From Aeromicrobium phoceense (lineage in GTDB: Bacteria; Actinomycetota; Actinomycetes; Propionibacteriales; Nocardioidaceae): DNA of 64,000 bases. The DNA lies in contig NZ_JACEOG010000001.1 of NCBI RefSeq assembly GCF_013868155.1, positions 1,922,001 through 1,986,000 on the forward strand, in the 5' to 3' direction. Below the pieces are notes generated by a model. The model did not search any database. It was not told where the DNA came from and was given only the letters and a program-made list of their open reading frames with translations. The translations under genes were made by a program, and so were the position numbers. The first letter of the stretch is position 1. Every line of letters starts with the position of its first letter. Below, piece by piece: positions 29,779 to 39,397 of this stretch.

Positions 29779-29844
29779 GGACCGGGCCTGCGCCAGCGGC
29801 GTGGGTCCGTGAGAAGTCTCAGGTTCTGGTTTAGCCTTGCGATC

Positions 29845-32280
29845 ATGGCGACCCGAACGTCTTCCCCGCCGCGCAAGCGGCCGTCCGGCAGCCAGGCCCG
29901 CAAGAAGCCCGCGGCGCGCAAGCCGACACCTGCGCGCAAGCCGGCCCCCCGCACGGGTCCTGGTCCACTCAGTGCTGCCCTGCACGGCATCATGCGCGCG
30001 TCCACCGCCTTCTGGCTGGGACTCGCCGGTGTCGTGGGCGCGATCGCCCGCAGCATCGGCCACGGTGCGAAGGAGCTCGACGCCGAGCAGCGTCGCGACG
30101 GGGTCGGCCTCGCGCTGGTCGCGCTCGCCCTGGTCACGGCCGCCGCGGTCTGGTGGGACGTCACCGGCGGCCTCGGTGCCGGCGTGCGCCGTGTCACCAC
30201 GGGCTCGGTCGGCGTGCTGGCCTGGGCCGTCCCGATCCTGCTGGCCGTCGTCGCCTGGCGCACCCTGCGCCACCCCGACCGCAACGGTCCGGCCGGTCGC
30301 CAGGCGATCGGCTGGGGAGCCATCGTCGGCGGCGTCCTCGGCCTCGTGCACCTCGCCCACGGCACCCCGCGCCCCAGCGACCCCGACATGTCCGAGGCCG
30401 GGGGAGCGGTCGGCTTCCTGTTCTCGGCGATCCTCGTCGACCTGCTCAAGACCGGGTGGGTCGTCGCCCCGATCCTGGTGCTCGTCGTCGTCTTCGGCGT
30501 CCTCGTCGTCACCGCGACCCCGCTGTACGCCGTCCCCGACCGCGTGCGCTCCGTCGTGAACCGTGCCCTCGGCCGCGACAAGCAGCCCGAGCCCGAGGCC
30601 GCTCCCGAGCCGGTCAAGAAGCGCCACCCGCGCACGATGCCGCTGGCCGACGAGCCGTTCGAGACCCCGCTCGTGGCCGGCCCGGACGACGACCGGCAGG
30701 TGCCCGTCACCGTCCCGCCGCCCGTCCCGGTGCTCTCCGAGCCCGAGCCGCAGCCCGATCCGCGTCCGCTCGAGCCGCTGCCCGTCCGCGCCGAGCAGCT
30801 CGCGCTCTCGGGCGACATCGTCTACACGCTCCCCGAGCCGAGCGCCCTGAAGGAGGGCACCCCGCCCAAGGCGCGCTCCGCGGCTTCGGACGAGGTCGTC
30901 GGCCGCCTCACCGAGGTGCTCGAGCAGTTCCAGATCGACGCCACCGTCACCGGCTACACGCGTGGCCCGACGGTCACCCGCTACGAGGTCGAGCTCGGCC
31001 CCGCGGTGAAGGTGGAGAAGGTCACGGCACTGAGCAAGAACATCGCCTACGCCGTGGCCTCCAACGAGGTGCGCATCCTGTCGCCGATCCCGGGCAAGAG
31101 CGCGATCGGCGTCGAGATCCCCAACGTCGACAAGGAGATGGTCTCCCTCGGCGACGTCCTGCGGTCGAACAAGGCCCGCAGTGACCACCACCCGATGGTG
31201 ATCGGCCTGGGCAAGGACGTCGAGGGCGGCTACGTCGTGGCCAACCTCGCGAAGATGCCCCACCTGCTCGTCGCCGGCGCCACCGGCTCGGGCAAGTCCA
31301 GCTTCGTGAACTCGATGATCTCCTCGATCCTCATGCGGTCCACGCCCGACGAGGTGCGCATGATCCTGGTCGACCCCAAGCGGGTCGAGCTGAACGCCTA
31401 CGAGGGCATCCCGCACCTCATCACGCCGATCATCACCAACCCGAAGAAGGCCGCCGAGGCGCTGGCCTGGGTCGTGCGCGAGATGGACCTGCGCTACGAC
31501 GACCTCGCCAACTTCGGCTACCGCCACATCGACGACTTCAACAAGGCCGTCGTCTCGGGCAAGGTGCAGGCGCCCCCCGGCAGCGAGCGGGTGCTCACGC
31601 CTTACCCGTACCTGCTCGTCGTCGTCGACGAGCTCGCCGACCTCATGATGGTCGCCCCGCGCGACGTCGAGGACTCGATCGTGCGCATCACGCAGCTGGC
31701 CCGCGCGGCGGGCATCCACCTGGTGCTCGCTACCCAGCGACCGAGCGTCGACGTCGTGACGGGCCTGATCAAGGCCAACGTGCCGAGCCGCCTGGCGTTC
31801 GCCACCAGCTCGCTGGCCGACAGCCGCGTCATCCTCGACCAGCCCGGCGCCGAGAAGCTCGTGGGCCAGGGCGACGGGCTGTTCCTGCCCATGGGCGCGA
31901 ACAAGACGATGCGCATGCAGGGCGCCTGGATCACCGAGGCCGAGATCGAGACGATCGTCACCCACTGCAAGGAGCAGCTGCAGCCGTCGTACCGCGACGA
32001 CGTCACCGCTCCCCAGCAGGCCAAGCGCGAGCTGGACGACGACATCGGCGACGACATGGACCTCGTGCTCCAGGCCGTCGAGCTCGTCGTGAACACGCAG
32101 TTCGGCTCGACCTCGATGCTGCAGCGCAAGCTGCGGGTCGGCTTCGCCAAGGCGGGCCGGCTCATGGACATCCTGGAGAGCCGCGGCGTGGTCGGTCCGA
32201 GCGAGGGCTCCAAGGCCCGCGACGTGCTGGTCAAGCCGGACGACCTGGCCGACGTGTTGGCCAGCATCCAGGTCGGCTGA
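29845..32280 (+). CDS. ftsK: DNA translocase FtsK
   Basis: The septum-located DNA pump that clears chromosome termini at division. It has 811 residues. A basic Pro/Lys/Arg N-terminus precedes four membrane helices (about residues 50-235), followed by an acidic Pro-rich linker. The RecA-like motor has Walker [10 protein letters not shown] (residue 478 on), [21 protein letters not shown] and the Walker B-like [10 protein letters not shown]. The C-terminal gamma winged helix reads [32 protein letters not shown] 29845 is 7 nt after TAGCCT, so probably leaderless. Confidence 0.97.
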
Positions 32281-32294
32281 GTCGAAAGCGCCCC

Positions 32295-32300
32295 TATACT
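32295..32300 (+). promoter_or_regulatory. -10 element before the peptide cluster
   Basis: TATACT is an unusually strong -10 hexamer for this GC-rich genome and lies 46 nt before the transporter ATG, just after the ftsK stop. No good -35 is visible in the ftsK end. It marks the left edge of the accessory cluster. Confidence 0.6.
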
Positions 32301-32345
32301 CTTCAAGAAATCGTCGACGCTGGCGATGGAGAGTTCGGGGGACGT

Positions 32346-34229
32346 ATGCGGCCTGCGGCCAGCAGCGAGGGCATGGAGGTGCCGGACGCGGACCTGGATC
32401 CGCAGGACGAGGCGACATTCAGGCTGGGTCAGCACGCCTTGGTGCGGCACCATCTCGCATCGATATTTCGCTCACGTCGTGGTCCTTTGACCCTTGCCCT
32501 CGCCCTCGGTGTCGCGGGCAGCGCGGTGAGTCTCGCGCAGCCGTACCTCCTGAAGCGAATCCTCGACTCCCTACACGAACCCGAGGCACTCCGGCTCGTG
32601 CTGGTGCTCGCGGGAGTGGCTCTCGTCGCGGCCTGCTTCGACGCCATCCAGCAGTTCGTGGTGTCGCGGGAGGCTGAGCGGCTCGTTGCCGACCTCAGAT
32701 TGTCCCTGGTGCAGAAGTCCGTGCGCCTGCGCATGCCTGCCTACAGTGACGCGCGGATCGGTGACCTCGTCACCCGGCTCACCACGGACGCGAGCATGGT
32801 CCGCGGTGTGTTGGCGGGCGGAGTGCTCGATGTGCCCGGGAACGCGTTGGTGCTGGTGGGTGCTCTGACCATGATGGTCGTGCTGGACCCCGTCCTGTCA
32901 CTGATCGTCTTGCTCGGAACCGTGGTCGCTCTGGTCTCCGCTACGCTCGCCTCCCGGCAGATCCGAAGTCAGGCGATTGTCGTCCAACAGTCAGTCGGGA
33001 CCCTGGGCGCGGAGTACGAGCGGTCGGTGAGCGGTATCCAGACGGTGAGAGCCTGGGGCCAGGAGCAGCAGCTGGTTGCCCGCATGAGTGCCTTGATCGG
33101 GGATGCTCGAAAGCGTGGCACGAGGATCGCTGGCGTCGAGTCCGTTCTGTGGCCGGTGACGGGTCTCGTGATGCACGGTTGCATCATCGCCGTGGTCGCG
33201 GTCGGCGGCAGCCGGGTGGAGCTGGGAGAGATCTCCGTCTCCGACTTGGCTGCCTTCATGCTCCTGACCTTCATGGTCATCGCGCCCTTCAACCAGCTCG
33301 TTGGGACCGTGCTCGAGCTTCAGGTGGCTGGCGCGGCGTTGCTGCGTCTGGCCCAGATCGAGAGGTTGCCCGACGAGAGCGATCTCGACAGCCGATCGAC
33401 GAGGAACGCGTCTCCTCGCGAGTCCATCACGCATCCCCCCCGGGCCTCCGATCGCGCGGTTGGTCCCCGCCTCGTCCTTGGCTCGGTCGATTTCACCTAT
33501 GGGGATCAGCTGGCGCTCGACGGCATCAGCTTCGACGCCGGTCCCGGTGGCGTCACCGCACTGGTGGGTCCGTCGGGGTCCGGGAAGTCGACCATCCTCG
33601 CGTTGCTCATGAGATTCGTCGATCCCAGCCGCGGCAGGATCACCATGGACGGCGAGGACATCGCCGACCTCGATCCCGCCGCAGTTCGGTCCCAGATCGC
33701 GTTCGTCGGTCAGAACGCGGAGATCCTGGCGGGCACCGTGAGGCAGAATCTCACGCTCGGTCAGAGGACGGACAGCGTGGAGCGGGAGCGCACCTGGGAG
33801 GTCCTCACTCGCCTCGGACTCGGCGCACGCCTTCGATCTGCGAATGGACTGGACACTGCGGTGGGGGAGCACGGGTTGCAGTTGTCGGGGGGCGAGAAGC
33901 AGCGTCTGGTCGTTGCCCGCGCGCTCCTGTCCGACCGCCCGGTGGTACTGCTGGACGAGCCGACGAGCGGAGTGGATGCGACCAACGAGGCGGAGATACT
34001 GAGTGCCCTGGCCGAGGTGCCCGGGAAGACGTGCATTCTCGTCACGCATCGCCCCATGGCGATGTCCTCGGCCGAGAAGATCGTCCTCATCGACGCGGGC
34101 AGGGTGGTGTCCGTAGGGACGCACGAGGAGCTTCTCCGGAGCGACGACCTGTACGCCCGCTTGAACGAGCGTTCCTCAGGCCCGCGCGAACTCGCGCGAA
34201 GGATGGACGCGCCAAGGTCCTCCTTGTAA
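32346..34229 (+). CDS. ABC exporter (fused membrane and ATPase domains)
   Basis: A 627-aa half-transporter that probably exports the peptide product encoded just downstream. An N-terminal six-helix membrane domain (about residues 40-340) is followed by an ATPase domain with Walker [10 protein letters not shown] (408-416), signature LSGGE (513-517) and Walker B VVLLDEP (533-539). There is no N-terminal C39 peptidase domain, so leader removal must be done by another protein; an SDH-type protease is encoded downstream. The ATG follows GGGGGACGT. Wobble positions are visibly richer in A/T than in ftsK, a hint of foreign origin. Its last codons also appear as a relic upstream of the second peptide gene. 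Confidence 0.93.
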   Translation: MRPAASSEGMEVPDADLDPQDEATFRLGQHALVRHHLASIFRSRRGPLTLALALGVAGSAVSLAQPYLLKRILDSLHEPEALRLVLVLAGVALVAACFDAIQQFVVSREAERLVADLRLSLVQKSVRLRMPAYSDARIGDLVTRLTTDASMVRGVLAGGVLDVPGNALVLVGALTMMVVLDPVLSLIVLLGTVVALVSATLASRQIRSQAIVVQQSVGTLGAEYERSVSGIQTVRAWGQEQQLVARMSALIGDARKRGTRIAGVESVLWPVTGLVMHGCIIAVVAVGGSRVELGEISVSDLAAFMLLTFMVIAPFNQLVGTVLELQVAGAALLRLAQIERLPDESDLDSRSTRNASPRESITHPPRASDRAVGPRLVLGSVDFTYGDQLALDGISFDAGPGGVTALVGPSGSGKSTILALLMRFVDPSRGRITMDGEDIADLDPAAVRSQIAFVGQNAEILAGTVRQNLTLGQRTDSVERERTWEVLTRLGLGARLRSANGLDTAVGEHGLQLSGGEKQRLVVARALLSDRPVVLLDEPTSGVDATNEAEILSALAEVPGKTCILVTHRPMAMSSAEKIVLIDAGRVVSVGTHEELLRSDDLYARLNERSSGPRELARRMDAPRSSL

Positions 34230-34266
34230 TGTGCGGGTCAATTCAATCCGATCTGGGGGGCATGGA

Positions 34267-34455
34267 ATGGACGCACTGGGATTCGACCTGGCCGTGAACG
34301 ATGAAGGGACCGAGAGCGAGGACGACGCGTCATGGATTGCTGAGTCCGGAGCTGAAGCAGGGTGGGGCTGCACCAGATTCGGCGTGACTCGCTGGGGTGT
34401 CACCCTCTACTACCGGCGCCTTGCCTTCGATGTCGCGACCTTCTGCGGCGGCTGA
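34267..34455 (+). CDS. Putative RiPP precursor peptide A1
   Basis: A 62-aa peptide. MDALGFDLA and an acidic stretch (NDEGTESEDD) look like a leader. The block SWIAESGAEAGWGCT (residues 22-36) is identical in the paralog downstream, and the C-terminus is RRLAFDVATFCGG. Two Cys (35 and 60) are conserved between the copies. Serine, threonine, Asp and Glu in the second half offer donor and acceptor side chains for ATP-grasp ester or amide links. GGGGGG lies 6 nt before ATG 34267; longer in-frame starts at GTG 34231 would break the match with the paralog, so I reject them. No known family was recognised. Confidence 0.85.
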   Translation: MDALGFDLAVNDEGTESEDDASWIAESGAEAGWGCTRFGVTRWGVTLYYRRLAFDVATFCGG

Positions 34456-34482
34456 TGATGGAGTCCTGAGCGTTCGCGCATT

Positions 34483-34521
34483 GCGGCGACCGCGAGTTGC
34501 GCGTCAGCTCACGGTCGCCGC
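34483..34521 (+). terminator. Hairpin between the two precursor genes
   Basis: GCGGCGACCG (34483-34492) and CGGTCGCCGC (34512-34521) form a perfect 10-bp stem, extended by an inner GAG/CTC pairing. It may attenuate transcription from the first peptide gene or protect its mRNA 3' end. The second copy has its own duplicated upstream region. Confidence 0.65.
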
Positions 34522-34592
34522 GTTGTCGATTCCCGCGACCCGACTCGCCGTTCGCTGCTGTCGACGTTGACGGCTCGCCGACGTGCCGGAGG

Positions 34593-34659
34593 GGATGGAC
34601 GCCTCAATGACTTGCTTGTAGTGTGCGGGGCAATTCATACGGATTCGGGGGGACTTGAG
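34593..34659 (+). repeat. Second copy of precursor upstream region (first copy 34201-34266)
   Basis: Both copies begin GGATGGACGC and then share CTTGTAxTGTGCGGGxCAATTC, a C/T-rich spacer and GGGGGG just before ATG. In the first copy this stretch encodes the last codons of the ABC exporter (M-D-A-P-R-S-S-L-stop). In the second the frame survives as a relic, M-D-A-S-M-T-C-L-stop. This points to tandem duplication of [exporter 3' end + leader + precursor gene]. The conserved part probably includes a promoter, but no convincing -35/-10 pair could be fixed. Confidence 0.75.
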
Positions 34660-34851
34660 ATGGACGCATTGGGTTTCGATCTGGCTCGTGACGCCGATGA
34701 GATCGACGGCACGATGGACTCGTCGTGGATCGCGGAGTCGGGCGCGGAAGCTGGGTGGGGTTGCACCAAGGCTCAGGGAGTGCGCGTGGGCGGGGTGTTG
34801 ATCCGGTACAAGCGCCTCGCTTGGGATGCCGCGACGATTTGCGGAGTATGA
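34660..34851 (+). CDS. Putative RiPP precursor peptide A2
   Basis: A 63-aa paralog of the peptide 393 bp upstream. MDALGFDLA is identical, the acidic spacer differs (DADEIDGTMD), SWIAESGAEAGWGCT is identical, and the tail is KRLAWDAATICGV. Cys35 and Cys60-equivalent (Cys61) are conserved, together with the (R/K)RLAxDxATxCG end. The two diverge mainly between residues 37 and 50. This pattern fits two related products from one enzyme set. The stop overlaps the ATG of the ATP-grasp gene (ATGA), so synthesis of substrate and enzyme is coupled. Confidence 0.86.
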   Translation: MDALGFDLARDADEIDGTMDSSWIAESGAEAGWGCTKAQGVRVGGVLIRYKRLAWDAATICGV

Positions 34852-35855
34852 CACCGTCCCCTCCCACGTTGCTCATTCTGGGCGACCGCGAGGATCCGCA
34901 TGTCTGCGTGGTCGTGGACAAGCTTCGACGTTCGAGTTTCTGCGACTTCGCCGTCTTCGACCCGGCGGAAGCCCGAGACGCAGACCTGCGCGTGATGTTG
35001 TCCGGCACCCAAGGGGTCGCCGAACTAACGACGGATGAGGGCGTCGTCAAGTCCGAGCACGTGCGGGTGGTCTGGCGCCGACGGCCCCGAGGTGCGGACG
35101 CCGAAGACATCGAGGACCTGGTGCAGAGGGGCTTCGTGAAGAACGAGACGAATCACGCCGTGGCCGGCTTCCTGTCGTTGATCGAGAACGCCACCTGGTT
35201 CAACTCGCCCGAGGCTGAGCGAGTGGCTGGGAACAAGGTCAGCCACACGTTGGCAGCCGCGCGTGTGGGCCTGACGACAGCAGACTCGCTCGTGACCAAT
35301 CAGCCGGAGATCGCTGGTCTGTTCCTCGAGGAGGGGTCGACCGTCTACAAGACGCTCGGCGGAGTGGTCGGAGCGTTCTCCGAATGCCCGGAATGCGTGG
35401 CCCGACAGCAGCCGAGCGGAGAGTCACGAAGCTTCGACTTCTCCACGAAATTGCTGTCACCCAGTCAGGATCTTTCGGGTCTGCAAGTGGCTCCCGGGAT
35501 TCTCCAGCGCTTCGTTCCGAAGGAATATGACGTCCGGGTGACGGTGTTCGGGGGCCGCGCGGTGGCTACCGAATTCCACTCGCAGACCGACGCGAGGTCC
35601 ATCGTTGATTTCCGAGTGAGGGGAGACGTCATTCCGAGAGCTCCGCATGACTTGCCCGACGAGATCGCCGCGAGGTGCGTGGCACTTCTTGATCACTTCG
35701 GTCTGCGAGTCGCCACGTTGGACTTCGCTGTGACCGGTTCGGAGTACGTCTTCCTCGACCTGAACCCGGATGGTCAGTTCCTCTTCATGGATGACGACGA
35801 CCTCGAGCGGGTCGCTGGACCATTCGCCAGACACCTGATGGCCGAGGCGTCATGA
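34848..35855 (+). CDS. ATP-grasp peptide ligase, MvdD/graspetide-like
   Basis: A 335-aa ATP-grasp enzyme that would use ATP to link an Asp/Glu side-chain carboxylate of the precursor to a Ser/Thr hydroxyl or Lys amine. Features match RiPP-maturing ATP-grasp ligases: a pre-ATP-grasp N-domain (LLILGDREDPHVCVVVDKL), WFNSPEAERVAGNKVSHTLAAARVGL around residue 117, the central LQRFVPKEYDVRVTVFGG and the C-terminal metal loop LDLNPDGQFLF (Asn306-Gln310). A CPEC motif (Cys180, Cys183) is unusual and could bind zinc or be redox active. ATG 34848 overlaps the second precursor; the stop overlaps the protease gene. Confidence 0.9.
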   Translation: MTPSPPTLLILGDREDPHVCVVVDKLRRSSFCDFAVFDPAEARDADLRVMLSGTQGVAELTTDEGVVKSEHVRVVWRRRPRGADAEDIEDLVQRGFVKNETNHAVAGFLSLIENATWFNSPEAERVAGNKVSHTLAAARVGLTTADSLVTNQPEIAGLFLEEGSTVYKTLGGVVGAFSECPECVARQQPSGESRSFDFSTKLLSPSQDLSGLQVAPGILQRFVPKEYDVRVTVFGGRAVATEFHSQTDARSIVDFRVRGDVIPRAPHDLPDEIAARCVALLDHFGLRVATLDFAVTGSEYVFLDLNPDGQFLFMDDDDLERVAGPFARHLMAEAS

Positions 35856-36703
35856 GCGATCCGAGGACAACGAAACCGCTTGCCGTCGAGACCGGTCGGC
35901 ATGCGCTCTACTTCTGGAGCGCTCAGCTGACGGCGAACGACGTCCCCGTGATCGACATGTTCCTCCCTCCCGGCCGTGAGACGGACGTGATCCTCGGGAT
36001 CGACGGCGGGTCTGTCGACGCGGGACGACGGCTGGCTCGATATCTGGAAGGCAAACCCGAGCACATTCGAGCCCTGATTCCCACCGCGGCCACCTCTGCC
36101 GGCACGATCGCCGCGCTTGGTGCGGACGAGATTCAGCTGTCAGAGGTCGGATGCCTCAGCCCGGTCGACCCGAGTCTGTCCGCGACCCTTCCCAACGGTG
36201 TCAGCTACGACGTTGCTGCCGAGGACGTGCGTCGACTCCGTGAGGCGGAATGCACGTGGTTCCCCGGGTCGGAAGCAGCTGTTCAGGCGCTGTTCCAGCG
36301 CCTCAACCCGATCGTCCTGACCCAGCTCTACCGTTCGGAAGCCGAGGTCGTGGGGGCTGTCGAGAGCCTGCTCTCGCGTGGTCGCCACCTGCTGCCGTCG
36401 GCTGAGGCGAGCAAGGTGGCGAACGAGTTGGTCAACGCCTTCGGAAGTCACTTGCATGCGATCGATCGCCGGGAGGCGCGTGAGATCGGATTGGACGTGC
36501 TCAACATGAGCGTGGAAGTCGAGGCGATTTGCAAGACGATCGTGGCGCCCGAAGTCGTCTCCTCGTCTGAGAGCGAAGGCGTGGATCGCGGCCGAGTGCT
36601 CGCACGAATCGTGGGGGTGGATGGCCCGCTGGTCGAGAAGGTCGTCCTTCCCGACGGCGCGTTGGCCTGGGTCACGCCGAACGCGTCCGGTTCGTCCACG
36701 TGA
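35852..36703 (+). CDS. SDH-family (ClpP-fold) serine protease
   Basis: A 283-aa cytoplasmic protein of the serine dehydrogenase proteinase family (ClpP/crotonase fold). The key block IDGGSVDAGRRLARYLEG supplies the Gly-Gly oxyanion region and TAATSAGTIAALGADEI the candidate nucleophile Ser82, followed by LSPVDPSL, where family members have LGPxDPQ. No signal peptide or membrane segment is seen. Its place after the ligase suggests it cuts the leader from the modified precursor, since the exporter lacks a peptidase domain. That role is inference. It overlaps both neighbours by 4 nt. Confidence 0.85.
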   Translation: MSDPRTTKPLAVETGRHALYFWSAQLTANDVPVIDMFLPPGRETDVILGIDGGSVDAGRRLARYLEGKPEHIRALIPTAATSAGTIAALGADEIQLSEVGCLSPVDPSLSATLPNGVSYDVAAEDVRRLREAECTWFPGSEAAVQALFQRLNPIVLTQLYRSEAEVVGAVESLLSRGRHLLPSAEASKVANELVNAFGSHLHAIDRREAREIGLDVLNMSVEVEAICKTIVAPEVVSSSESEGVDRGRVLARIVGVDGPLVEKVVLPDGALAWVTPNASGSST

Positions 36704-37221
36704 TCACGACCGAGGTGCCGGTTCTCATCTCCGCTGGCGTTCTGCTGTGCTCGGGCGTGGGAAAGGCTGCCAACTTCGCGCGGACCAGCGCGTCTCTCGA
36801 AGGTTCCTTCGCCCTGCGACCCCACGTAGCGACGAGATTGAACGCCGCGCTCATCGTCGTGGAGACGGCGATCGCCCTGATGCTGCTCTCTCCGCTTCGC
36901 GTCGCTGGACTGGTCTCGGCCTCCCTGCTCTTCGGGGCCTTCCTCGCCTACACGGCGTTCATCGTGATCTCGGGGCGCGAAAGGACCTGCATGTGCTTCG
37001 GTCAGAGTGCTCGCCGGATCGGCTGGCCAACCGTGGTCCGCAACGCGTTGCTCTTGGCGATTGCTGCATACGGTGCGTACTTGGTCGCGAACGGCGGGGT
37101 TCTGGATCTCCGACGCGAACTCGCCACCAAGGTCCTGATCGCCGCCTACTTCGTGCTTCTCTTCTGGGCATGGGCGCAGGTATTCGAGGACGAAAGCCAG
37201 AGGAAGGACGTGGTCGCATGA
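36700..37221 (+). CDS. MauE/DoxX-like membrane redox protein
   Basis: A 173-aa membrane protein with four hydrophobic helices (about residues 3-20, 45-65, 70-90 and 105-125, plus a final one near 145-162). It matches MauE-type proteins, which support disulfide formation outside the cytoplasm. A Cys-Met-Cys pair (Cys97, Cys99, RTCMCFG) sits after the third helix, where MauE relatives carry redox cysteines. The GTG start at 36700 overlaps the protease stop. With the thioredoxin encoded next it forms a plausible thiol-oxidation or reduction pair for the two conserved precursor cysteines. Confidence 0.83.
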   Translation: MITTEVPVLISAGVLLCSGVGKAANFARTSASLEGSFALRPHVATRLNAALIVVETAIALMLLSPLRVAGLVSASLLFGAFLAYTAFIVISGRERTCMCFGQSARRIGWPTVVRNALLLAIAAYGAYLVANGGVLDLRRELATKVLIAAYFVLLFWAWAQVFEDESQRKDVVA

Positions 37222-37790
37222 GTTACGACGCGTGGCTCGCGATGGCCTGTGTGATCAATCTCATTCTGTTCCTTCGCCTCCACTCCCGGCTCGGAGCGGT
37301 AGCGAAGGGACGGTCCAAGGATGAGGAATTCGTGCTCTGTCCGGCCGGTACGACACTCGGAGAGCAGGCATCGAGGGAGCTGGGTATCGACGGCCAAGAG
37401 TCTGTACTGCTCTATCTGTCCTTCGGCTGCCCGGTGTGCGGGTTGGCGATCCGGCAGCTCCCGCGGTGGGTGGAGTTGGCCGGTGATCAAGGGCTCAACG
37501 TGGCGGTGGTGGCAGAGGCGGAAGGGGAAGCGCAGTTGATCTCGCTCCGGAGTCAGATCCACGACATCGCTCCGAGCGTCTCGGTGCATGCTGTCGCTGA
37601 TGGCCACCCCGTCTGGGCGCAGTTGAACTCACGACAGCTCACGCCGGCGTTCATACACGTCAGGGACGCCCGCGTCATCGTGAGCGGAGAGTACGGGGGA
37701 CGGGCCTGGCAGCGGTTCGCGCGGGGAATCGTCGACAGGGCTCGGAACGGCGAAAGCGTCGCGCTGGACGAGATGGAGCGTCCGCGGTGA
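37218..37790 (+). CDS. Membrane-anchored thioredoxin-like protein (MauD/TlpA type)
   Basis: A 190-aa protein with one N-terminal membrane helix (residues 5-22) and an extracytoplasmic thioredoxin fold. The active site is Cys71-Pro-Val-Cys74 (YLSFGCPVCGLAI), and a cis-Pro-containing TPAFIHV segment follows near residue 140. MauD and TlpA proteins act as disulfide oxidants or reductants for exported proteins. The ATG overlaps the MauE-like stop by 4 nt. It is the last gene of the cluster; nothing of the set continues past 37790. Confidence 0.87.
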   Translation: MSYDAWLAMACVINLILFLRLHSRLGAVAKGRSKDEEFVLCPAGTTLGEQASRELGIDGQESVLLYLSFGCPVCGLAIRQLPRWVELAGDQGLNVAVVAEAEGEAQLISLRSQIHDIAPSVSVHAVADGHPVWAQLNSRQLTPAFIHVRDARVIVSGEYGGRAWQRFARGIVDRARNGESVALDEMERPR

Positions 37791-37919
37791 GCTCGCGGCA
37801 TCGTCTCGCACGCTGCGTGAAGCCACGACCTGGCGATGAGTGATCCCTCATGCCACGGGGCTGCCTGAGGCCAACGGCGGTCCACGGCGGTTCGTCCGTG
37901 CATTCGCGTCGGTCAGCAC

Positions 37920-37982: not shown

Positions 37983-38303
37983 ATGACCTACAACGCACCT
38001 CCGCCGCCTCCGTCCTCGGGGCCCTACGGCGGAGCGACGCCGCCGCCGAACAACCTCGTGTGGGCCATCCTCACGACGATCTTCTGCTGCCTGCCGCTCG
38101 GCGTCGTCTCGATCGTCTACGCGGCGCAGGTCAACGGCAAGTTCGCCGCTGGTGACCTCGCCGGTGCGCAGGAGTCCTCGCGGAAGGCGAAGCAGTGGGC
38201 CATCTGGTCCGTCATCGCCTTCTTCGTGGCTCTCGTCATCTACTTGATCGTGATCTTCCTCGTGGTCGCCAACGGCGACACCACGTCGACGTCGAGCCTC
38301 TGA
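37983..38303 (+). CDS. CD225/dispanin-family small membrane protein
   Basis: A 106-aa protein with a Pro-rich cytoplasmic N-terminus (MTYNAPPPPPSSGPYGG) and two membrane helices separated by an Ala/Lys-rich loop. NNLVWAILTTIFCCLPLGVVSIVYAAQVNGKFAAGD is the CD225 signature also found in interferon-induced transmembrane proteins. Bacterial members are common in actinobacteria without a firm function. Its stop overlaps the region where the DUF2752 gene must start. Confidence 0.9.
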   Translation: MTYNAPPPPPSSGPYGGATPPPNNLVWAILTTIFCCLPLGVVSIVYAAQVNGKFAAGDLAGAQESSRKAKQWAIWSVIAFFVALVIYLIVIFLVVANGDTTSTSSL

Positions 38304-38761: not shown

Positions 38762-39397
38762 ATGGACTCGTCTCGCCCGGCCGACAAGCCGAGCAACCTG
38801 AACGTCCCGAACGTCCTCACGGTCATCCGCATCCTGGGTGTCCCGGTCTTCGGCTGGCTGCTGCTCCACGACGGGGGCGAGTCCATCGGCTACCGGATCG
38901 CCGCGTGGGCCGCGTTCGTCGTGCTCATGGCCACCGACAAGATCGACGGCGACATCGCCCGCAAGCACAACCTGATCACCGACTTCGGCAAGATGGCCGA
39001 CCCGATCGCCGACAAGGCGCTGACAGGGATGGCGTTCATCGGACTGGCGATCATCTTCACCGACCAGCCGTGGGGCACGGTCTTCTGGATCGCGGTCGTC
39101 CTCATGCTCGTGCGCGAGTGGGGCATCACGGTGATGCGCGTGGTCATGGTCCGTCGCGGGTTCGTCATGCCGGCAGGACGCGGCGGCAAGCTCAAGACCG
39201 TCCTGCAGTCCGTGGCGATCGCGGGCTACTGCCTGCCGTTCGAGATCTGGGACGGCCCGGTTCCCACCGTGATGCTCGCGCTGACCCACGTCGTGATGGC
39301 CGCCGCGCTGGTCCTCGCCCTCGTGACAGGCGTGCAGTACGTCCTCGACGCCCGCCGGCTGGCGGCGCAGACTCCCGCAGGCGGCGCCTCGCGGTGA
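38762..39397 (+). CDS. pgsA: CDP-diacylglycerol--glycerol-3-phosphate phosphatidyltransferase
   Basis: A membrane enzyme making phosphatidylglycerol-phosphate. The 211-aa protein has the complete CDP-alcohol phosphotransferase motif, with the four Asp in DKIDGDIARKH and FGKMADPIADK. Several membrane helices surround it. CATACT ends 7 nt before the ATG (leaderless type). It is the first gene of a pgsA-cinA-clgR-DUF3046 run of overlapping genes that normally follows ftsK closely in actinobacteria. Confidence 0.95.
   Translation: MDSSRPADKPSNLNVPNVLTVIRILGVPVFGWLLLHDGGESIGYRIAAWAAFVVLMATDKIDGDIARKHNLITDFGKMADPIADKALTGMAFIGLAIIFTDQPWGTVFWIAVVLMLVREWGITVMRVVMVRRGFVMPAGRGGKLKTVLQSVAIAGYCLPFEIWDGPVPTVMLALTHVVMAAALVLALVTGVQYVLDARRLAAQTPAGGASR

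Follow-up and report, generated by a model that had tools for sequence, protein, structure and literature searches.

The stretch analysed here, which we call the window, comprises 64,000 nucleotides (nt) of the Aeromicrobium phoceense contig NZ_JACEOG010000001.1, and it holds seven consecutive genes, all on the + strand, that very likely encode a pathway for a ribosomally synthesized and post-translationally modified peptide (RiPP). The first gene (32346–34229) encodes an ABC exporter of 627 amino acids (aa) with membrane and ATPase domains (PF00664 and PF00005). It is followed by two tandem genes for small paralogous precursors, precursor 1 (34267–34455; 62 aa) and precursor 2 (34660–34851; 63 aa), neither of which has a family-scan match that reaches its cut-off, and then by genes for a graspetide-type ATP-grasp ligase (34848–35855; 335 aa), an SDH serine protease of the ClpP/SppA fold that is our candidate leader peptidase (35852–36703; 283 aa), a MauE-like membrane redox protein (36700–37221; 173 aa, with a GTG start) and a membrane-anchored thioredoxin-like protein with CPVC at residue 71 (37218–37790; 190 aa). 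The five genes from precursor 2 through the thioredoxin overlap by 4 nt at each of their four junctions. Upstream of the cluster lies ftsK (29809–32280), and downstream lie a small membrane-protein gene (37983–38303) and then pgsA (38762–39397); ftsK and pgsA were named by reading and not by family scan. An earlier account made from the letters of the window only (hereafter the sequence-only reading) had described seven consecutive genes between ftsK and the pgsA block, with their 4-nt overlaps, paired peptides and anchored CPVC thioredoxin, and every one of these parts was found.

Families and predicted folds of the encoded proteins

The ligase carries the NPDGQ loop (as FLDLNPDGQ) for which it had been likened to MvdD, and its assignment to the graspetide type is borne out by structure: when its predicted model (predicted local distance difference test, pLDDT, 77.5) is compared with known structures, ranks 1 to 32 are all graspetide synthetases (PruB, AMdnB, MdnC, a Chryseobacterium ligase, MdnB and PsnB), an agreement at the level of domains only, since the global root-mean-square deviation is high. 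Its best NCBIfam match is TIGR04187 (GRASP_SAV_5884), followed by MvdC and MvdD, all below their cut-offs. The ligases of all 16 loci that have the complete gene set (see below) share residues K130, K168, R230, D292 and N306. Residues 173–198 of the window ligase form a CPEC-bearing stretch of low model confidence that is not present in eight other aligned ligases.

The SDH protease, previously called SDH/ClpP-fold, scores 38.2 bits with PF01972 against a gathering score of 31.3, and its model (pLDDT 79.4) has a ClpP-like fold that resembles 1510-N, SppA and ClpP; its NF047768 score of 55.7 does not reach the cut-off of 250. G52, G53, Ser82 (taken as the catalytic serine), D106 and H200 are invariant in all 16 loci. 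On plasmids of Methylocystis, Phenylobacterium and Rhizobium (loci L069, L070 and L071), an SDH related to that of the window ends small ubiquitin-like conjugation operons, which in Methylocystis and Phenylobacterium consist of a multiubiquitin protein, E2, ThiF, DUF6527 and SDH; the incomplete gene table of the Rhizobium locus is without E2 and DUF6527. These SDH proteins are among the nearest plasmid matches of the window SDH, but their annotated stretches contain no ATP-grasp ligase, MauE or small Cys precursor.

The MauE-like protein had been so named from sequence and scores 78.6 bits with PF07291 against a cut-off of 27 (66.4 against the same cut-off for the MauE of the Rheinheimera locus L118). 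The window thioredoxin has no family-scan match, the MauD model TIGR02661 included, and the thioredoxin of L118 scores 21.3 with that model, below its cut-off of 188.6. The CxCFG motif of MauE and the CxxC motif of the thioredoxin are each present in 16 of 16 proteins.

Recurrence of the gene set and its descent

The order ligase–SDH–MauE–thioredoxin was found in the window and in 15 further loci from Actinomycetota, Alphaproteobacteria and Gammaproteobacteria (16 in total), and each of the 15 has precursors with an FAF-like leader within 1.5 kb upstream. The sequence-only reading had asked whether the gene order is conserved and had named the lack of precursors at homologous loci as the outcome that would speak against it; the order is conserved, and precursors were found at all 15. 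Among 391 genomes of the host order there are 45 ligase matches in 33 genomes, and among 393 genomes of the host class there are 34 (own genome included in both); in the order no ligase but the window's own has the partner genes beside it among the loci and stretches examined, and the class added L107 and L088, in both of which the full order is present. The long stretches examined cover 31 of the 45 order matches and 21 of the 34 class matches, and the other order matches that became loci were seen with 1.5-kb flanks only. A scan of genome contigs with the window ligase alone found no relative, and an alignment of three ligases was needed; it returned 40 loci, eight of them with the full order (Aestuariibacter, an Acidothermaceae metagenome-assembled genome (MAG) that is the L088 locus, Leifsonia, Rheinheimera, Pseudoalteromonas caenipelagi, a Phenylobacterium MAG, Brevundimonas and a Parvularcula MAG). 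In 295 genomes of the order of Rheinheimera there are eight ligase matches, and all six new ones have the full order and precursors. Neither Caulobacteraceae (1 of 149) nor Microbacteriaceae (1 of 249) yielded a match outside the starting genome.

The three partner genes are present together or not at all. In one set all three accompany two of 54 ligase loci and none accompanies the other 52, and in the contig scan the corresponding figures are eight of 40 and 32; merged, with one locus common to both, these sets give 93 distinct related ligases, nine with all three partners and 84 with none, as judged with hidden Markov models (HMMs) built from the window, L107 and L088 and on contigs some of which are short. 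An Agrobacterium locus (T29) with similar gene lengths holds other genes, and the SDH matches examined in kin genomes (three) and on plasmids (five of 27 records) lie outside such operons.

For the trees, ligases were trimmed to their C-terminal 345 residues and SDH proteins to their C-terminal 305, and L099 contributed a single one of its two ligases. The first tree drew on 52 SDH-less ligase loci; the second omitted seven rows with long branches. The ligase tree, made from 68 sequences, groups all but one of the SDH-linked ligases (15 of 16) in a supported clade of 19, whose other four rows are L123, two Chloroflexota contigs (L113 and L116) and a Deinococcus plasmid (L157). A single clade made of the 16 SDH-linked ligases alone was strongly rejected, at least partly because it shut out the close relative L123; a second test of one clade therefore took in L123, L113, L116 and L157, and its outcome is weighed below. 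In the SDH tree one origin of all 16 is not rejected (approximately unbiased test, p-AU 0.25). Either the window cluster is a fast-evolving member of the group, or its ligase was replaced.

Two relatives of these ligases stand beside small proteins of another kind. At L157 (6666–7879; Deinococcus wulumuqiensis plasmid), where the ligase frame is short (297 aa), the small FAF-leader protein contains no Cys, and SDH, MauE and thioredoxin are all absent. At L124 (7803–9014), on a sister branch, a small FA-leader protein likewise has no Cys and no partner genes. Thus, in the two cases seen, the absence of Cys and the absence of the redox pair go together, and such loci could represent a single-ester, disulfide-free cousin. 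In addition, at L074 (7290–8075; Haur_5022 of a Herpetosiphon plasmid) a graspetide-type ligase without any evident small precursor alongside is followed by a hypothetical protein that by eye resembles a peptidyl-prolyl isomerase.

The cluster entered the A. phoceense genome as a unit. The gene downstream of it is present in 11 of 49 genus genomes searched (own genome counted); in six congeners the site is empty, with about 70–100 nt from ftsK to the next gene and no cluster between, and in the short stretches compared for the remaining four there is no ftsK. Against the closest congener with an empty site, left homology ends at 32284 and right homology starts at 37917, which delimits an inserted cassette (32285–37916) with all seven genes inside. 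By these breaks and the empty sites, what arrived was a single 5.6-kb low-GC insert made up of the seven genes with little besides; the GC content of the cluster is 0.649, against 0.70–0.71 in its flanks, and its position coincides with the lowest-GC 5.4-kb segments of the 64 kb. The sequence 37897–37916, at the right junction, imperfectly resembles the 3' terminus of ftsK, which is possibly a trace of integration and may be due to chance.

Precursor pattern and the predicted modifications

We collected 24 precursors from 17 loci, namely the 16 complete ones and L123, whose contig ends after the matching ligase. They were picked as frames within 1.5 kb upstream that have an FAF, FAQ, FGF or FGM motif and at least two Cys, so other precursors in these loci would be missed. 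The N-terminal FAF-like motif (LGFDLA in the window) is thus itself a picking criterion. Set against a graspetide leader motif of the type Phhx(1,2)h (PMC8939145), it has a Pro directly before it in L107, L110, L120 and L123 only. In most precursors a W-x-A-x-x-G-like stretch, recognised by eye, precedes the first Cys. Three Cys-rich precursors were kept apart, which leaves 21 of the 24 with two Cys each.

The two-Cys precursors share a simple pattern. Ser or Thr directly follows the first Cys in all 21, and 20 have Asp or Glu at position -5 from the second Cys (the exception, from L107, has Asp at -6), so that a donor and an acceptor of the kind graspetides use are present. Gly at -3 and an aromatic residue at -1 are each found in 18. 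In the window the loops read C35-T36 ... D55-x4-C60-GG in precursor 1 and C35-T36 ... D56-x4-C61-GV in precursor 2. The Cys-to-Cys loop varies from 15 to 31 residues, and shuffling the loops, in a way that ignores the relatedness of the precursors, gave means of 2.9 for the +1 Ser/Thr and 2.5 for the -5 acid, with none of 20,000 shuffles reaching the observed counts. In three loops (L165_2, L167_1 and L168_1) the +1 Ser/Thr is the only hydroxyl residue, and in four (L166_1, L169_2 and both window peptides) the -5 acid is the only acid. Since some loops have a single hydroxyl and others a single acid, the only Ser/Thr ester that could be common to the loops joins Ser/Thr(+1) to Asp/Glu(-5). On this residue pattern, one omega-ester at those positions is the probable product of the ligase.

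We infer the reactions and their order, the site of cleavage and the export step as follows, and the likelihoods attached to them are our judgement. The ligase would bind the precursor through its FAF-like N-terminal leader and activate a single acid, the Asp at -5 from the last Cys, by phosphorylation of its side chain. An omega-ester from this Asp to the Ser/Thr that directly follows the first Cys would then close a loop of 15–31 residues. The MauE/thioredoxin pair would join the two flanking Cys as a disulfide; since that disulfide would lie beside the ester, the loop would be closed twice at nearly the same place. SDH, taken as cytosolic, would then cut off the leader, probably near the W-x-A-x-x-G stretch, and the peptidase-less ABC exporter would release the peptide.

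That the MauE/thioredoxin pair makes or guards a disulfide between the two Cys seems likely to us. As for its topology, in each of the 16 thioredoxins the residues behind the membrane anchor carry more positive charge than those ahead of it; the positive-inside rule would place the thioredoxin domain in the cytoplasm, and a crude hydropathy reading of the MauE loops puts its Cys pair on the same side. The sequence-only reading had the pair act outside the cytoplasm; anchor charges and MauE loops point instead to the cytoplasmic face. This bears on an alternative that we consider unlikely, in which a thioester or a Lys amide, and not the Ser/Thr ester, is the product of the ligase, or a second link is added, and MauE and the thioredoxin keep the Cys reduced. 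Besides the cytoplasmic side suggested by the charges, the Cys are as conserved as the acid, amides and non-native thioesters are possible for graspetide synthetases (main text of PMC13097080), and the text seen of PMC8939145 reports conserved Cys in many graspetide precursors and reads them as thioether donors for radical SAM enzymes. Lys is absent, however, from 18 of the 21 loops, and every one of the 21 has the +1 hydroxyl, for which a thioester would have no need.

The SDH gene lies between the ligase and MauE genes in 16 of 16 loci, and the genes overlap or nearly touch. The Pfam matches of the window exporter include no peptidase domain, and the exporters of the other loci, at 548–640 aa, are presumably too short to hold a C39 domain as well. 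Because the window exporter lacks such a domain and SDH is in all 16 sets, we think it reasonably likely that SDH is the leader peptidase. Rather improbably, SDH could instead be a resistance or target protein, that is, a decoy or a resistant copy, since inhibition of serine proteases is frequent among graspetides; the main text of PMC13097080 proposes self-resistance for proteins such as the serine proteinase of graspetide group 9, and it names microviridins and plesiocin as serine protease inhibitors. Against such a role stand the constant position of the gene, its tight junctions and the exporters just described, although the check for another peptidase covered the exporters only. A review from 2023 that deals with the leader proteases of RiPPs (PMC10885120) uses neither "ClpP" nor "SDH" in the text seen.

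Of the 15 other loci, 13 have a full-length relative of the window exporter next to the operon (14 of 16 with the window). It comes after the operon on the same strand in 11 and is divergent beside the precursors in the alphaproteobacterial loci L122 (5437–7227) and L137 (5572–7380), where it does not follow the thioredoxin gene. It is very doubtful that the product stays within the producer and works inside or at its membrane, for example as a redox cofactor peptide. No such exporter stands beside the L147 operon, the only ABC gene at L110 is on the other strand and resembles the exporter in the ATPase part alone, and MauE and MauD serve methylamine dehydrogenase maturation (text seen of PMC7794033). 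The adjacent exporter in 14 of 16 loci speaks for release, as does the wide variation of loop length and sequence, which is unlike a cofactor.

The precursor gene of the window was duplicated along with its 5' non-coding region, at a spacing of about 393 nt: the segment upstream of precursor 1 (34201–34260, +) is copied upstream of precursor 2 (34593–34652) with 78% identity. An inverted repeat with 17-nt arms (34483–34521, +) lies between the copies. Folding of the stretch between the precursors against its shuffles gave no unusual stability (z -0.91), and no promoter or terminator pattern rose above shuffle level.

Relation to known systems and significance

The best explanation of the whole, which we hold with moderate confidence, is a graspetide-type RiPP with one ester and a dedicated disulfide, leader removal by SDH and release by the ABC exporter. 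A number of observations weigh against it. The window ligase scores 145.5 bits with TIGR04187 against a cut-off of 350, and that of L109 scores 252.1, so both scored ligases miss the subfamily cut-off. The tree puts the window ligase on a very long branch, apart from the clade of the other 15, and a topology that forces it into the group of 19 is rejected, though weakly (p-AU 0.021). Within that clade, Chloroflexota L113 (with an ABC gene after the ligase) and L116 (2.8 kb downstream) have no SDH, MauE or thioredoxin in the DNA examined, and no precursor was found for either ligase. Since the partner HMMs came from three loci only, distant partner genes could have been missed. The loop shuffles, as said, take no account of kinship among the precursors. 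The three Cys-rich precursors (two of L109 and one of L110; Leifsonia and Acidothermaceae) keep CT at the first Cys and carry the acid after the last Cys, so the residue rule is not universal. A cytoplasmic thioredoxin and MauE Cys pair, as judged from charge and hydropathy, fits a disulfide-forming role less easily. Of the sequence-only reading, then, the RiPP pathway, tandem precursors, graspetide-type ligase and conserved order stand, and the extracytoplasmic redox pair is not supported as put there; its predicted cross-link with a disulfide is strengthened by the pattern in 21 precursors.

Graspetides, the omega-ester and omega-amide RiPPs such as microviridin and plesiocin, resemble this system in ligase fold and sequence family, in a leader followed by a core, and in donor Ser/Thr with acceptor Asp/Glu. 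They differ from it in that here a single ester position is common to the two-Cys cores, two Cys are conserved, and a redox pair and SDH accompany 16 loci. The older name of PF01972 is "serine dehydrogenase proteinase". A 2026 survey of graspetides (PMC13097080, main text) finds a serine proteinase in over half of the biosynthetic gene clusters of group 9 and links groups 26, 30, 32 and 40 to proteases, so that in all five a protease is encoded beside the ligase, as here. The ligases may thus already be counted in group 9, and it is a possibility we take seriously, while thinking it the less probable, that the whole system belongs to a catalogued group (9, or the protease-linked 26, 30, 32 or 40) and that only the redox pair and the residue rule are new. 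The main text of that survey nowhere mentions MauE, thioredoxin, disulfide, cysteine or Cys, and the secondary modifications listed in its introduction (acetylation, methyl-ester formation and aminomalonate on a linear precursor) include no disulfide; these groups were compared by description, not by their members.

Other partial likenesses were found in the literature. In the text seen of PMC8939145, precursor clusters 281 and 1028 allow one ester only and diverse peptidases go with branches 7 and 8, so that single-ester-only and conserved-Cys precursors both have precedents there, but that text has no thioredoxin, disulfide, MauE or SDH (the clusters were compared by description and not by sequence). 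The text seen of PMC7794033 (decRiPPter) describes mauE in three Streptomyces candidate families, one also with mauD, and takes it as precursor modification; MauE there also stands beside a predicted Cys-bearing precursor, but those precursors have at least eight Cys, and no SDH and no link to a graspetide ligase are given for them. In the text seen of PMC13003496 a Cys of one graspetide precursor was removed to avoid a disulfide, and nothing on a dedicated disulfide appears in the portions seen of that paper, PMC9576775, PMC12291112 and PMC10787088. We found no description of a graspetide with MauE in the literature, where ATP-grasp, MauE and RiPP together led to PMC7794033 only, as seen in part, and combinations of ATP-grasp, thioredoxin and ClpP in a RiPP context gave no match. 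For graspetides, no description of double closure by a side-chain ester and a disulfide was found in a comparison that covered literature and left the membership lists of group 9 outside.

Somewhat short of even likelihood, in our view, these clusters form a separate hybrid RiPP class that transfer has carried into two bacterial phyla. Its minimal graspetide ligase would make exactly one ester, MauE and the thioredoxin would add a dedicated disulfide by oxidation, possibly at the cytoplasmic face before export, so that a loop of unconstrained length would be held twice at a single point, and SDH would be a cytosolic leader peptidase. The pattern Cys-Ser/Thr ... Asp/Glu-x4-Cys supplies a testable residue rule for a double-bridged scaffold, which would be attractive for library design because the loop tolerates 15–31 residues of varied sequence, and the gene sets of several proteobacteria are directly testable. 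The ClpP-fold enzyme is a candidate leader peptidase for part of the graspetides and, if the proposal is true, the precursors would offer a small, tractable peptide substrate for MauE/MauD-like redox pairs.

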